32,693 nucleotides of DNA from an uncultured Ruminococcus sp. (lineage in GTDB: Bacteria; Bacillota; Clostridia; Oscillospirales; Ruminococcaceae): assembly GCA_947178195.1 (NCBI GenBank), contig CAMWXM010000004.1, positions 1-32,693 on the forward strand. The letters are read 5' to 3'. Shown piece after piece: positions 19,716-29,633 of this stretch (its first letter is position 1; every line of letters begins with the position of its first letter). The notes below the pieces were generated by a model that saw nothing but the letters and a program-made list of their open reading frames with translations, was not told the origin of the DNA and ran no database searches. The position numbers were made by a program, and so were the translations under genes.

Positions 19716-22700
19716 ATGAAGCTTAAAAAAATTGTTACCAGTATTGTCGCAGCAGCGATGATGGTGACAGCTGCAACCGTGAACAGCGGCTATTTCTCAT
19801 TTGTAAAAACGCCGGACGCAGTATACGCTGCTCCTCAGCAGTCGACTATGTACGAGTCGTTTAGTCTGGTCTGGAAGCCTGTAAGCGGTGCGGAAGGATA
19901 TAACGTATATGTAAAGCCAGACGGCGGAAGCTATAAGCAAATCGACTCGATGCTTATAAGGCAGTACAGCGACGGCTATTTCCATGCGGACGCTGTGGGA
20001 CTTAAAGCAGGTTCATACACTATGAAAGTGGTTCCGGTAATCGGCGGCAAGGAGGATTCATCAAAGGCTTGGGAAACTCCGGGCGTGGTAAGCGCTTACG
20101 ACAGAACAGGCTTCGGCTGGGTAAACGGCACTTCTTCAGGCGCATATAATGAGGACGGTACGTTAAAGGATAACGCTCGTGTGATTTATATTACGGAGGA
20201 TACAAAGAATACCGTTACTCTTGAAGTTACGACCAGCTCAAAGGGTGCGACTACAGTGGGTACGGGTCTCCAGGAAATCTTTAATCTTTACAAAAAAGGC
20301 TATGAAACAAGACCGCTTGCAGTAAGAATTGTTGGTCAGGTGACAGATCCGGAAACTCTTGATAAGGGAGATATGACTATTGACGGCGGTGGAAAATTAA
20401 CCTGCGGTGTTACAATCGAAGGTATCGGACACGACGCTACAATAAACGGCTTTGGTTTAAGATTGAAAAATATTAAAAACTGCGAAATCAGAAATCTCGG
20501 CTTTATGCTGGTAGACAGCAATGAAGGAGATAACGTTACCTTGCAGCAGGGTAACGATCATATCTGGGTCCACAACTGCGATTTCTTCTACGGCAAGGCA
20601 GGAAGCGATAAAGATCAGGCTAAGGGCGATGGCGCTCTGGACTGTAAACTTTCTACATATGTAACCTTCTCCTACAACCATTTCTGGGACAGCGGAAAGT
20701 GCAATCTTTTAGGTTTAAGCGAAAATACAACAGACGATCTTTATGTTACCTATCATCACAACTGGTATGACCATTCCGATTCCAGACATCCTCGTGTAAG
20801 ATTTTATTCAGCTCATGTTTATAATAACTATTATGATGGAAACGCTAAATACGGAATTGGAGCAACATTGGGCTCGTCAATTTTCGCTGAAAACAACTAT
20901 TTCAGAAATTGTAAATATCCAATGCTCATATCTATGCAGGGTTCGGATACGGTTGCAGGAGGCATTTTCTCAGGCGAAGACGGCGGCATTATAAAAGCTT
21001 ATGGCAACTATATGACAGGTCAGAAGGCTTTCGTACCTTACAGCGAGAATAATACGGAATTTGACGCTTATGTTGCTTCTTCAAAGTCTGAAAAAGTTTC
21101 CGCAACGGTAAAATCTAAACAGGGATCTAATACATACAACAACTTTGATACAAATACTTCCGTAATGTATAACTGGACTGCCGATCCGGCAGAAAAAGTA
21201 CCGGAAATAGTTATGGCAGGCGCAGGACGTGCCGGCGGTGGAGATTTCAGCTTCACTTTCGATAACTCAAAGGACGATGAGGATTACAGTGTAAATCAGG
21301 CATTGATGACTTCTCTCCTCAACTATAAATCTTCTGTTATCGCTATCGGAAGCGGATTTAAATCAAATGTTGAACCTGTTACCACTACAGCAAAAGCAAC
21401 AACTCAGGCTACTACAAAAGCAACAACCAATGCAACAACAAAATCTACTAACGCAACAGCAAAGACAACACAGGCTACTACTAAATCTACAAATATAACC
21501 ATTCCTCCTGTTTCAGGGAAAATAATTTACTGTTCTCCACAGGGAAAAGTTTCTGCGGCTGGTACTCAGAATGATCCTATGGACGTACTTACGGCTATTT
21601 CAAAGGTTGAAGCTGGCGGTATGATTTATCTTCTTGACGGAACATATAAATTCGATAAAACAATTGTAATAGATAATAAAAACAACGGTTCTGCCGGTAA
21701 ATATAAGACTATGATGGCTTACCCTGGAGCAGACGTTGTATGGGATTTCTCAGCATTGGCTGTAGATGGCAACAACAGAGGGCTTGTTCTGGACGGCAGC
21801 TACTGGCATATCAAAGGCTTTGAAATAACAAAAGCAGGCGATAATGGTTTACTCTTATCTGGTAATAATAACCGTATTGAATTAATGGAATTCACAGATA
21901 ATCAGGATACAGGTTTACAAATTTCACGTTACAGAACAGATGCGGCAACTATTGACCAGTGGCCTTCAAACAACCTGGTTCTCAACTGTACATCAAAGAA
22001 TAACTGCGATGACAAAACTATGGAAAATGCGGACGGCTTTGCTGCAAAGCTTACCTGCGGCGAGGGCAACGTTTTTGACGGCTGTATGGCATACAACAAC
22101 TCGGACGATGGTTGGGATTTGTTTGCAAAAACCGACACAGGTCCTATCGGTGTTGTAACACTCCGCAATTGTGTAGCATTCAGAAACGGTTATACCGAAT
22201 TCGGCGAAGGCTTTGGCGATTGCGATGGAAACGGATTTAAGCTTGGCGGCAGCGGCGTTGGTACTGCTCATGTTGTAGAAAACTGTCTTGCATTTGAAAA
22301 CTTAAACTGCGGTTTCACAGACAATAATAACCCGAAGCTTGGCAGTCTTACAAATTGTACTGCATATAACAACGGTATGGGCGGCAAAGGAAAGCCTAAC
22401 TTCTCATGCTATCGCTGTACAGACGATGGCTGCGATTTCAAGAATGTTCTTACATACATAAATGAAGACAGACTTATATCTTCATTTGCGCGTGGTGAGG
22501 CAACACCTAAGAAATCCAATGATAAGTTTGTAGGTACTATTGAAAACTCTCTTTACTATAATTCCAAATATTACAATGTAAAAAACAAAACAAATATTGA
22601 AAACGGCGGAAAAATCGGCGATGTTGTAACTCCTGACGACGATATGTTTGTAAGCCTTTATGTTCCAGCATACAGTGGACCAATTACAGGTGATCCGGTA

Positions 22701-23015
22701 GAGTTTGTACCATTTGATTTCCATACTGAATGGAGAAATGCCGACGGCTCTGTTAACACTCACGGTTTCTGCGAAGTTAAGGACACAAGCGAATTTGCAG
22801 GTCTTGGTGCAAAGTTTGAGGCTCAGACTGTAAAGCCAGATTTAAAGGGTGATCTGGATAAGGACGGCGATGTTGATGTTACCGATCTGGTTTTAATTCA
22901 GAAATTCCTCGTTAAGTACTCGACTATTGTAACTCCGGCATATGATGTTAATGAGGACGGAAAAATCAATGTTTTCGATTTCATTACATTAAAGCGCATT
23001 ATACTTGCTAAGTAA
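19716..23015 (+). CDS. Secreted bimodular pectate lyase: FN3-like, PL1, Thr-rich linker, PL9, type I dockerin
   Basis: Signal peptide; PL1 motifs (GIGHDATINGFGLRLKNIKNCEIRNLGF, DGALDCKLSTYVTFSYNHFWDSGK, YHHNWYDHSDSRHPRVR); Thr/Ala linker; PL9-like repeats (YWHIKGFEITKAGDNGLLLSGNNNRIE..., AYNNSDDGWDLFAKTD); dockerin duplicated Ca loops DLDKDGDVDVTDL and DVNEDGKINVFDF. Confidence 0.85.
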   Translation: MKLKKIVTSIVAAAMMVTAATVNSGYFSFVKTPDAVYAAPQQSTMYESFSLVWKPVSGAEGYNVYVKPDGGSYKQIDSMLIRQYSDGYFHADAVGLKAGSYTMKVVPVIGGKEDSSKAWETPGVVSAYDRTGFGWVNGTSSGAYNEDGTLKDNARVIYITEDTKNTVTLEVTTSSKGATTVGTGLQEIFNLYKKGYETRPLAVRIVGQVTDPETLDKGDMTIDGGGKLTCGVTIEGIGHDATINGFGLRLKNIKNCEIRNLGFMLVDSNEGDNVTLQQGNDHIWVHNCDFFYGKAGSDKDQAKGDGALDCKLSTYVTFSYNHFWDSGKCNLLGLSENTTDDLYVTYHHNWYDHSDSRHPRVRFYSAHVYNNYYDGNAKYGIGATLGSSIFAENNYFRNCKYPMLISMQGSDTVAGGIFSGEDGGIIKAYGNYMTGQKAFVPYSENNTEFDAYVASSKSEKVSATVKSKQGSNTYNNFDTNTSVMYNWTADPAEKVPEIVMAGAGRAGGGDFSFTFDNSKDDEDYSVNQALMTSLLNYKSSVIAIGSGFKSNVEPVTTTAKATTQATTKATTNATTKSTNATAKTTQATTKSTNITIPPVSGKIIYCSPQGKVSAAGTQNDPMDVLTAISKVEAGGMIYLLDGTYKFDKTIVIDNKNNGSAGKYKTMMAYPGADVVWDFSALAVDGNNRGLVLDGSYWHIKGFEITKAGDNGLLLSGNNNRIELMEFTDNQDTGLQISRYRTDAATIDQWPSNNLVLNCTSKNNCDDKTMENADGFAAKLTCGEGNVFDGCMAYNNSDDGWDLFAKTDTGPIGVVTLRNCVAFRNGYTEFGEGFGDCDGNGFKLGGSGVGTAHVVENCLAFENLNCGFTDNNNPKLGSLTNCTAYNNGMGGKGKPNFSCYRCTDDGCDFKNVLTYINEDRLISSFARGEATPKKSNDKFVGTIENSLYYNSKYYNVKNKTNIENGGKIGDVVTPDDDMFVSLYVPAYSGPITGDPVEFVPFDFHTEWRNADGSVNTHGFCEVKDTSEFAGLGAKFEAQTVKPDLKGDLDKDGDVDVTDLVLIQKFLVKYSTIVTPAYDVNEDGKINVFDFITLKRIILAK
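21377..21512 (+). repeat. Low-complexity Thr/Ala/Lys linker-encoding repeat
   Basis: TTTAKATTQATTKATTNATTKSTNATAKTTQATTKST encoded by degenerate ACA/ACT/GCA repeats. Confidence 0.8.
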
Positions 23016-23418: not shown

Positions 23419-23447
23419 TTGACATTTTTCGTCAAAAATGATATTAT
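23419..23447 (+). promoter_or_regulatory. Putative sigma-A promoter for murT-gatD
   Basis: TTGACA (23419-23424), 17-bp spacer, TATTAT (23442-23447). Confidence 0.65.
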
Positions 23448-23490
23448 AAAATAGATGGAAAACGTCAATATTGAATATGAGGAAAAAGCA

Positions 23491-24864
23491 ATGAAAAAAC
23501 CACTTAGATTTTATATTTCAGTAATCGGAGCAAAGCTCCTTATAAAGTTAATGCGTCTGATGAAACGTAATGCCACAAATCTTCCGGGGGAAATTATGCT
23601 TATTTTTTATCCCGGTCTTTTAAAGCATTTCGATATGCCACAGAATGTTATTGCTGTGACTGGTACAAACGGTAAAACTACCGTTTCAAATATGATAAGC
23701 AATATATTAAAGGCTAACGGATATGATATTATTAATAACAGTTTCGGCGGAAATGTCGATACCGGAATCGCTTCGCTGCTGCTTGACAAGTGCACTGTGA
23801 AGGGCGAATTTAAAGTTGATACCGCCGTTTTAGAGGTCGATGAAAGAAGTGCAGAACGAGTTTTACCATGCGTTAAACCTGATTGGCTTGTCTGTACAAA
23901 TTTACAGCGTGATTCTATGAAAAGAAATGCACATACTGAATTTATTTTTAATTTTCTGAATAAAAATATTCCTGAAAAAACGAAGCTTATTTTAAATGGA
24001 GACGATCTGATAAGCAGCAGGCTTGCGGAAAATAATCCAAGAACATATTTTGGTATCGCTAAGCTTGAGGGAGAAACTGCTGAATCGGAAAATATTATCT
24101 GCGATATTGTGAACTGTCCGAAATGCGGAAACAAACTTGAATTTTCATATCGCCATTATAATCATATCGGACGTGCTTCCTGTAAATGCGGATTTGGTTC
24201 TCCGGAAATTGATTTTGAAGCAATCGGTTCGGAAAACGGCGAAGCGGTCATTATGCATGACGGCAAAAAGGAACGCTATAAGCTTCCGAACAATCGCATA
24301 ACCGATCTTTATAACGTCTGTGCTGCGGTTACTTTTTCAAGAACCTTCGGACTTTCAGATAAGCAGGTCTCGGAGGCTATGTCTGAGGTTGAGGTAGTAA
24401 AGTCAAGATATGACAGCTTTACAGCAGGTGGAAAGGAAGTAATAGTTTCTCTGGCAAAAGGTCAGAACCCTGTGGCTTGTTCGGGAGTATGCGGTTTTGT
24501 AAGAAAGGAAAGCGGCGATAAGGCTGTTATTATGATTCTGGAAGACCTTTATGACGGAAAGCGTACCTCTGAAAATATAGCATGGATATATGAAACGGAT
24601 TTTGAATTTTTTAAGGGTCAGGACATAAAGCAAATCGTTGTCGGCGGGAAAAGAGCTGAGGATTATATGGTAAGGCTGCTTATTGCTGGAGTGGACAGAC
24701 AGAAAATCTTCTGTTGCCGCAATGAAACGGATACGGTAAAGCTTTTAAAGCCTGAGCTTTTCGATAAAATTATTATTATGTACGATCTGTTCAATGTTGA
24801 ATCGCTTAACAGCATAAAGGCGCAGCTTAAAGCTGATGACCAAATTGGCAAGGAGAATAAATAA
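23491..24864 (+). CDS. murT: MurT-like Mur ligase (lipid II isoglutaminyl synthase subunit MurT family)
   Basis: ATG at 23491 after GAGGAAAAAGCA; P-loop AVTGTNGKTTVSNMISNIL; Zn-ribbon CPKCGNKLEFSYRHYNHIGRASCKCG; adjacent to a GatD homologue. Confidence 0.85.
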   Translation: MKKPLRFYISVIGAKLLIKLMRLMKRNATNLPGEIMLIFYPGLLKHFDMPQNVIAVTGTNGKTTVSNMISNILKANGYDIINNSFGGNVDTGIASLLLDKCTVKGEFKVDTAVLEVDERSAERVLPCVKPDWLVCTNLQRDSMKRNAHTEFIFNFLNKNIPEKTKLILNGDDLISSRLAENNPRTYFGIAKLEGETAESENIICDIVNCPKCGNKLEFSYRHYNHIGRASCKCGFGSPEIDFEAIGSENGEAVIMHDGKKERYKLPNNRITDLYNVCAAVTFSRTFGLSDKQVSEAMSEVEVVKSRYDSFTAGGKEVIVSLAKGQNPVACSGVCGFVRKESGDKAVIMILEDLYDGKRTSENIAWIYETDFEFFKGQDIKQIVVGGKRAEDYMVRLLIAGVDRQKIFCCRNETDTVKLLKPELFDKIIIMYDLFNVESLNSIKAQLKADDQIGKENK

Positions 24865-25580
24865 TGAGCATTGTAATTGAAGAACTTTTTCCTGAGGTAT
24901 GTAATCTTTTCGGCGACAGTGGAAATATGCGGTATTTGAAGCTTTGTCTCCCGGAAGCTGAATATATCTCAACGCCGCTTAACCAGAAGCCATATTTTGC
25001 AGATAATGATGTTGATATGATATATATGGGACCTATGACTGAAAATACTCAGCTTCAGGTTATAGAGCGTCTTAAACCCTATAAAAAACGAATAGAAGAG
25101 CTTATCGAAAAAGGGGTTATTTTTCTTCTGACAGGAAATTCTCATGAAATATTCGGGCAGAAAATTATTGACTCGGACGGAACAGTTGTTGAAGGTCTGA
25201 AGGTAACGGATTTTTATGCCAAAAGAAATATGATGAAGCGTTTCAGCGGTCTTGTTCTGGGCAATTATGAAGATATTGAGATAGCGGCATTCAGGGCTCA
25301 GTTTACCGAAGGCTTTCCCGGTGAAGATTATCAGCCTTTTGTTCAGATGACAAAGGGCGTTCCTATGAATAAAAAATCTTTTACGGAGGGCTATGTTAAA
25401 AATAATTTTTATGCAACCTATCTTCTTGGACCGCTCCTAGTTCTGAATCCTTTTTTTACAAAAAAACTTTTGCATAAATTGTGTAAAAAGGATCGTACTC
25501 TTGCATTTGAAACGGAAGTGGTCAGAGCATATGAAATAAGACTTGAGGATTTTAAGGACAAAAAGGTTGATATTCATTAA
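24864..25580 (+). CDS. GatD-like class I glutamine amidotransferase homologue lacking canonical catalytic residues
   Basis: Overlaps the murT stop (TAATG). EKGVIFLLTGNSHEIFGQKIIDSDGTVVEGLKVTDFYAK and NNFYATYLLGPLLVLNP correspond to the GatD nucleophile and His motifs with Cys and His replaced. Confidence 0.8.
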   Translation: MSIVIEELFPEVCNLFGDSGNMRYLKLCLPEAEYISTPLNQKPYFADNDVDMIYMGPMTENTQLQVIERLKPYKKRIEELIEKGVIFLLTGNSHEIFGQKIIDSDGTVVEGLKVTDFYAKRNMMKRFSGLVLGNYEDIEIAAFRAQFTEGFPGEDYQPFVQMTKGVPMNKKSFTEGYVKNNFYATYLLGPLLVLNPFFTKKLLHKLCKKDRTLAFETEVVRAYEIRLEDFKDKKVDIH

Positions 25581-28622: not shown

Positions 28623-29633
28623 TTAAAGAAGAATTATTCCATTTTCTTTACATTTTTGAGTCATATCCTCGGGCCATACTGAAACCTGAACCTCGCCGAT
28701 ATGAGCCTTTTCAAGCAAAAGCATACAAAGTCTTGACTGACCGATACCGCCGCCGATAGTAAGCGGAAATACGCCGTTTACTATGTTTTTATGATAATCG
28801 TATTTAAGACGATCCTCTGCGTCAACCTCTTTCAGCTGTGAAACAAGAGATTTTTCATCAACACGGATACCCATTGAAGAAACCTCAAGTCCTGTCTTCA
28901 AAACCTCGTTCCAGATGAATAAATCGCCGTTGAGCGACCAGTCGTCGTAGTCCGGCGCACGTCCGTCATGACGTTCTCCGCTTTTGAGCTTTCCGCCTAT
29001 CTGCATTATAAATACAGTTTTGTATTTTTCGGAAATAAGCTTTTCACGCTCTTTTGAAGTTTTGTCAGGATACATATCTTCAAGCTCCTGAGAGGTTATA
29101 AAATGCACGTCTTCACAAATCTGAAGCGCAAGCTGAGGATATCTGAGGCTTACTTTTCTTTTAGTATAAACTATTGCTTTGACTATAGATTTTACTGTTG
29201 ATTTTAAAAATTCAACATTGCGGTTTTCACGGGTTATAACCTTTTCCCAATCCCATTGGTCTACAAAAATGGAATGCATATTATCTGTATCGTCATCTCG
29301 ACGGATAGCGTTCATATCAGTATAAATTCCTTCGCCGGCATTATAATTGTATCTGTAAAGAGCCTGTCTTTTCCACTTGGCAAGAGACTGGACAACCTCG
29401 GCATCGTTTTCGATTTCCTTGATCGAAAAATCTACCTTTCTTTCAACACCGTTTAAGTCATCGTTGATACCGCTTCCTTTTTTTACTATGAGCGGAGCGG
29501 TCACACGGTCAAGAGTAAGTGCAAATGAAAGTGCCTGCTGAAAAATATCCTTGATATATTTTATCGCATGCTGAGTTTCTCTTAAAGTCAGAGAGGATCT
29601 GTATCCTTCCGGGATATAAAGTGATTTAGACAT
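28623..29633 (-). CDS. asnA: Aspartate-ammonia ligase
   Basis: LRETQHAIKYIKDIFQQAL; RVTAPLIVKKGSGINDDLNGVERKVDF; FVDQWDWEKVI; GGGIGQSRLCMLLL. Confidence 0.95.
   Translation of the reverse strand: MSKSLYIPEGYRSSLTLRETQHAIKYIKDIFQQALSFALTLDRVTAPLIVKKGSGINDDLNGVERKVDFSIKEIENDAEVVQSLAKWKRQALYRYNYNAGEGIYTDMNAIRRDDDTDNMHSIFVDQWDWEKVITRENRNVEFLKSTVKSIVKAIVYTKRKVSLRYPQLALQICEDVHFITSQELEDMYPDKTSKEREKLISEKYKTVFIMQIGGKLKSGERHDGRAPDYDDWSLNGDLFIWNEVLKTGLEVSSMGIRVDEKSLVSQLKEVDAEDRLKYDYHKNIVNGVFPLTIGGGIGQSRLCMLLLEKAHIGEVQVSVWPEDMTQKCKENGIILL

Follow-up and report, generated by a model that had tools for sequence, protein, structure and literature searches.

The murT-gatD pair of an uncultured Ruminococcus sp. 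belongs structurally and genomically with MurT/GatD, yet it fails the tested features of a glutamine-hydrolysing lipid II isoglutaminyl synthase, and comparison of its sequence with characterized homologs makes the loss of glutaminase chemistry very well supported. The pair keeps the structure and gene context of MurT/GatD but fails the catalytic-residue tests and falls short of the NCBIfam equivalog cut-offs (GatD, 65.9 bits of 400; MurT, 213 of 800), and was therefore classed as a variant of MurT/GatD. It lies in a window, the whole stretch of DNA analyzed, of 32,693 nt (GCA_947178195.1, contig CAMWXM010000004.1, positions 1-32,693, forward strand). The gatD gene (24864-25580, +; RBS AAGGAG) encodes a 238-aa GatD-like subunit without the catalytic Cys and His, and shares one base with the stop codon of murT, an overlap already pointed out in the original prediction. 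The murT gene (23455-24864, +) encodes a Mur ligase with a Zn ribbon (PF08353, 74.7 bits), whose top PDB match is Staph. aureus MurT (E 7e-55). Upstream of the pair is a sigma-70-like promoter, TTGACA-17-TATTAT (23419-23447, +), which is a consensus match only, at 11/12 positions. The first ATG of murT, at 23455, coincides with the predicted transcription start of this near-consensus promoter; because of this, and because relatives begin at ATG 23491 (MKKPLRFY..., RBS GAGGAA), the latter is likely to be the true start. The host genome is 97.4% complete and encodes one MurT (a single MurT_C match) and one GatD, side by side; a search for a canonical murT-gatD pair elsewhere in it returned none, nor a second GatD or MurT. 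Other GATase_3 matches in the genome were rejected as GatD, being read from their translations and frame lengths as CobQ/CobB-like (long cobyrinate-synthase-like frames), HisH-like and ThiJ-like proteins.

Sequence and structure comparisons agree that the open reading frame at 24864-25580 encodes a GatD homolog, as had been proposed. The PDB entries closest to it are GatD subunits from Staph. aureus, Strep. pneumoniae and Strep. pyogenes, with phmmer E values of 1e-13 to 3e-15 to chains 5n9m, 6gs2, 6fqb and 9sq9, and it scores 33.7 bits with Pfam GATase_3 (PF07685; gathering score 27). The AlphaFold2 model, built from a 55-sequence alignment, has a pLDDT of 95.7 and a pTM of 0.92, and VIA-align gave Z scores of 26.6-27.9 to six MurT/GatD entries versus 16.5 to the next family, the HisH-type glutaminases. 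The model confidence and this gap in Z scores indicate that the fold is that of GatD and that the residue register is sound. The GatD fold and an adjoining MurT with a P-loop, Zn ribbon and MurT_C domain are thus all present in the pair, which shares with the isoglutaminyl synthases of Staph. aureus (6gs2/6h5e), Strep. pneumoniae (6fqb) and Strep. pyogenes (9sq9) the operon order, overlap, fold, MurT domain architecture, P-loop, DE pair, four-cysteine Zn ribbon, K-N loop and GatD Arg128. It differs from them in lacking Cys94, His189 and MurT Asp349, in the replacement of the oxyanion glycines Gly60 (by Pro57) and Gly95 (by Asn92), in a two-residue insertion in the MurT K-N-P loop, and in a GatD identity of only ~21-24% by structural alignment.

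In the phmmer alignment, the nucleophile segment of the PDB GatD chains lies opposite LLTGNSHEIFG, and GTYLHGPIL lies opposite ATYLLGPLL. Gly91 (GGA, 25134-25136) therefore occupies the position of the Staph. aureus nucleophile Cys94 and Leu188 (CTT, 25425-25427, +; Ile, Leu or Thr across the clade) that of the catalytic His189, in agreement with the original prediction. The former nucleophile elbow reads Gly91-Asn92-Ser93-His94-Glu95 (25134-25148, +) in place of Cys94-Gly95-Gly96-Tyr97-Gln98, so that TGN stands where ICG is expected, and with Pro57 at Gly60 neither the elbow Cys nor the oxyanion-hole glycines are found. In Staph. aureus, His189 of GatD is completed by Asp349 of MurT in a triad formed across two proteins (PMC6113224), and in the window pair this third residue is MurT Asn374 (24574-24576, +; Asp in 100% of canonical MurTs and Asn in 83% of subtype 2a, the subtype of the window). 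As Cys94, His189 and MurT Asp349 are all replaced, the whole two-protein triad is absent. In Staph. aureus, activity is abolished by C94G, C94S, C94A or H189A alone and is severely reduced or lost with D349N (PMC3266927, PMC5871853, PMC6113224). The window pair is altered at every one of these positions, in line with the earlier proposal that the subunit probably cannot hydrolyze glutamine.

The vacated site has been rebuilt with new residues rather than left to random decay. The substrate loop, GGGSDREQ in the canonical protein and MGPMTENTQ here, had been described as degraded; it is indeed changed, with Pro57 at Gly60, but it is not merely degraded, since Glu60 (25041-25043, +), which stands in the former oxyanion loop where canonical proteins have Asp63, is Glu in 100% of the 2a and 2b representatives. 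The TGN..E motif is likewise nearly invariant, and subtype 2a GatD proteins carry Gly91 in 100%, Asn92 in 98% and Glu95 in 94% of cases, alongside MurT Arg131 in 96% and His160 in 90%. MurT His160 (23932-23934, +) replaces a canonical Glu141 conserved at 100%, lies in a loop facing GatD, and reaches 100% in 2b. Arg128 is needed for glutamine capture in Staph. aureus (PMC5871853), and its counterpart Arg126 (25239-25241, +) is kept; a first column count had suggested its loss, which better alignments showed to be an alignment shift. The description of MurT as apparently intact holds for the ATP and Zn residues: the ATP, Mg and acceptor residues K59, T60, N85, E108, D110, E111, N267, K315 and N316 and the four Zn-ribbon cysteines are conserved in all types. 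It does not extend to the interface, which is remodeled, with Asn374 at the triad position and a two-residue insertion, Gly336-Gln337 (24460-24465, +), present in all members of the triad-less clade and located in the K-N-P loop, which may touch the ATP ribose in Strep. pneumoniae (PMC6085368).

Both genes are maintained. Against three close relatives, dN/dS was 0.04-0.14 for gatD and 0.03-0.07 for murT, values that are approximate as synonymous distances are near saturation, and gatD is under strong purifying selection. The loss of the catalytic residues, together with two near-complete genomes of the same genus (G006 and G007) that have no GatD-type match except CobQ-length ones, might suggest a subunit losing its function or an assembly error, but this is very improbable given the intact overlapping reading frames, the low dN/dS, the occurrence of the motif in hundreds of species and the age of the clade. 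For the clade as a whole, conservation rules out a pseudogene or sequence error. The original prediction would have been undermined had the degenerate form been absent from all relatives, whereas the variant was present in 8 of 10 other genomes of the genus (51-82% identity) and in distant members of the order (23-29% identity), and a pattern search across 84,980 species, selective for the variant motif, returned 483 coding stretches carrying it.

Later genome surveys used a mixed profile that did not select for type; the survey genomes outside G000 include MAGs, and part of the class and phylum matches were fetched and typed. In the order of the window, triad-less pairs outnumbered canonical ones (48 of 66 typed complete pairs), while they made up 18 of 62 in the typed part of the class matches; outside the class, a single locus (L284) was the only clade member in the portion of the phylum sample that was typed. 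Altogether, 220 complete pairs comprised 61 canonical (Cys, His and Asp present, no insertion), 156 triad-less and 3 sporadic ones. Cys and His were absent and the insertion present in all 156 triad-less pairs, with Asp also absent at the aligned position in 144. A single branch of the MurT tree separated the triad-less pairs from all canonical ones, including Staph. aureus (SH-aLRT 99), and they remained on one side of one branch when the insertion and Asp349 columns were removed (79 representatives, support 97), although these are quick trees in which deep placement is approximate. Conservation of the degenerate motif as a clade is thus borne out by the genus relatives, the species scan and the MurT trees. 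One 2a GatD (L240; G330:C31:9178-10020), in a 310-residue frame, carries a mid-protein Ala/Val/acid-rich repetitive insertion of ~30-40 residues.

The same 79-representative tree contained ~7 further independent GatD inactivations nested among canonical MurTs. In these (L216, L220, L234, L277-L279, L280-L281, L282 and L283), Cys is replaced by Gly, Ser or Ala and His often by Ser or Gln; in L277-L279 the MurT GAN and K-N-P motifs are also lost. Since these glutaminase losses arose with an otherwise canonical MurT, independence from glutamine seems viable without a new substrate; this suggests that a supply free of glutamine is easily sustained, which favors ammonia as donor.

A canonical pair together with a 2a or 2b pair was seen in none of the surveyed genomes; where a genome held two copies, both were of canonical type, the gene was split, or a divergent pair of subtype 2d was present in addition. 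Because the two never share a surveyed genome, the data are consistent with a replacement of the canonical pair by 2a and 2b, acting on the same carboxyl, with shared ancestry also contributing to the lack of coexistence. Subtype 2d (L237, L243, L245 and L284) is a divergent triad-less group with the motifs RNG[DE]P, K-x-x-N and YxNxFYxFD; it stands beside a canonical pair in genome G602 and beside a 2a pair in genome G559, and for this reason it probably has a separate role. That at least 2d is no simple replacement lends some weight to the idea that GatD is a scaffold in triad-less pairs that act on another carboxyl or precursor. For the kind found in the window this is unlikely, as 2a and 2b have not been seen beside a canonical pair and N85, D110 and E111, which serve the acceptor and Mg, are unchanged.

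The observations (three triad residues lost, conservation, a clade, intact ATP and Zn machinery) are here read as an active MurT-type ligase with an obligate non-catalytic GatD that most likely uses free ammonia, a reading given about an even chance; the substrate, the donor and the role of the channel are the parts that we infer. MurT would bind ATP, turn a carboxyl on the lipid-linked precursor of peptidoglycan into an acyl phosphate, and then join an amine to it; the alpha-carboxyl of D-Glu is the most likely target. GatD, without hydrolyzing glutamine, would be an obligate structural subunit shaping an amine channel between both proteins, and with free cytosolic ammonia as the most likely donor, D-isoglutamine would be formed without glutamine. 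The original prediction offered free ammonia, another amine donor or a scaffold for a different ligase role, which is the right list, and ammonia is ranked first.

Human carbamoyl phosphate synthetase I is a natural ammonia-using enzyme in which a Cys-less glutaminase-like domain is kept as a structural part. It appeared as a weak Foldseek match (5dot, rank 42), and differs in its unrelated synthetase domain and pathway and in being a single polypeptide. A further parallel is the Staph. aureus GatD C94G mutant, with the same Cys-to-Gly change, in which glutamine-dependent amidation was lost, NH3-dependent amidation was unaffected at pH 8.5, and the glutaminase-dead GatD was still required by MurT (PMC3266927). 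Ammonia is ranked as most likely because this mutant works on NH3, and the window pair looks like a natural, further evolved version of the same state. The mutant is a laboratory point mutant that needs pH 8.5 and keeps His189 and Asp349, whereas the window pair has lost both. Several points weigh against ammonia: Staph. aureus MurT/GatD did not use NH3 at pH 7.5 (PMC3266927), the ammonia-dependent AsnA shows no consistent link with the variant, and the new near-invariant residues of GatD (Glu60, Asn92 and Glu95) and MurT (Arg131, His160 and Asn374), with the loop insertion, exceed what glutaminase loss would need. These residues, the insertion and the retained Gln-capturing Arg could form a pocket for a new donor.

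It is possible, if rather doubtful, that the remodeled cleft between GatD and MurT is a site for an amino acid or another amine, which MurT attaches to the D-Glu alpha-carboxyl. The newly conserved polar and acidic residues point toward the former glutamine site and toward the loop with which other Mur ligases receive the amino acid, the Gln-capturing arginine is kept, and the lack of genomes that also have a canonical pair is compatible with both competing for one carboxyl; on the other hand, no racemase or amino-acid gene recurs among the neighbors, and the repeated independent glutaminase losses require no new donor. Peptidoglycans with an amino acid at position 2, such as those with group B cross-links, require a ligase attaching it to the D-Glu alpha-carboxyl, and we know of none. 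The stronger proposal, that the triad-less clade is a distinct ligase family in which an amino acid or some other amine, rather than ammonia, is added to the D-Glu alpha-carboxyl of lipid II, with the former glutaminase as part of the amine-binding site, is tentative and on balance improbable.

The genomic neighborhood of triad-less pairs gave no clue to the donor. The only conserved run, found in ~28 loci of one clade (L029-L092) directly downstream of gatD, consists of rlmN, a PP2C phosphatase (Stp), a PASTA Ser/Thr kinase, rsgA and rpe, and suggests a cell-wall context. The window also encodes an ammonia-dependent aspartate-ammonia ligase, AsnA (28626-29633, -; TIGR00669, 353 bits). AsnA was discarded as a tracker of the triad-less type, its presence pointing in opposite directions in the order (27/47 triad-less versus 5/18 canonical, P 0.05) and in the class (6/17 versus 24/41, P 0.15). 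Upstream of the pair, the window encodes a 1099-residue secreted protein (19716-23015, +) that resembles the pectate lyases PelX and PelN and, as read from its sequence, carries a pair of dockerin-like repeats at the C terminus.

A search of non-subscription literature returned no paper describing the triad-less form or the muropeptides of such bacteria. MurT/GatD determines whether position 2 of the peptidoglycan stem is amidated, and in this way influences cross-linking, antibiotic sensitivity and the sensing of gut bacteria by NOD receptors. In a large clade of gut Clostridia the pair is probably annotated, on the basis of similarity, as a glutamine-dependent amidotransferase, but it cannot use glutamine in this way, and the presence of murT-gatD is therefore an unsafe predictor of peptidoglycan chemistry in these bacteria. 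If the clade did add an amino acid or other non-ammonia amine, it would be a missing enzyme class for position-2-branched peptidoglycan. The natural variant also offers a direct test of what a non-hydrolyzing GatD contributes and of the route by which an amine or ammonia reaches MurT.
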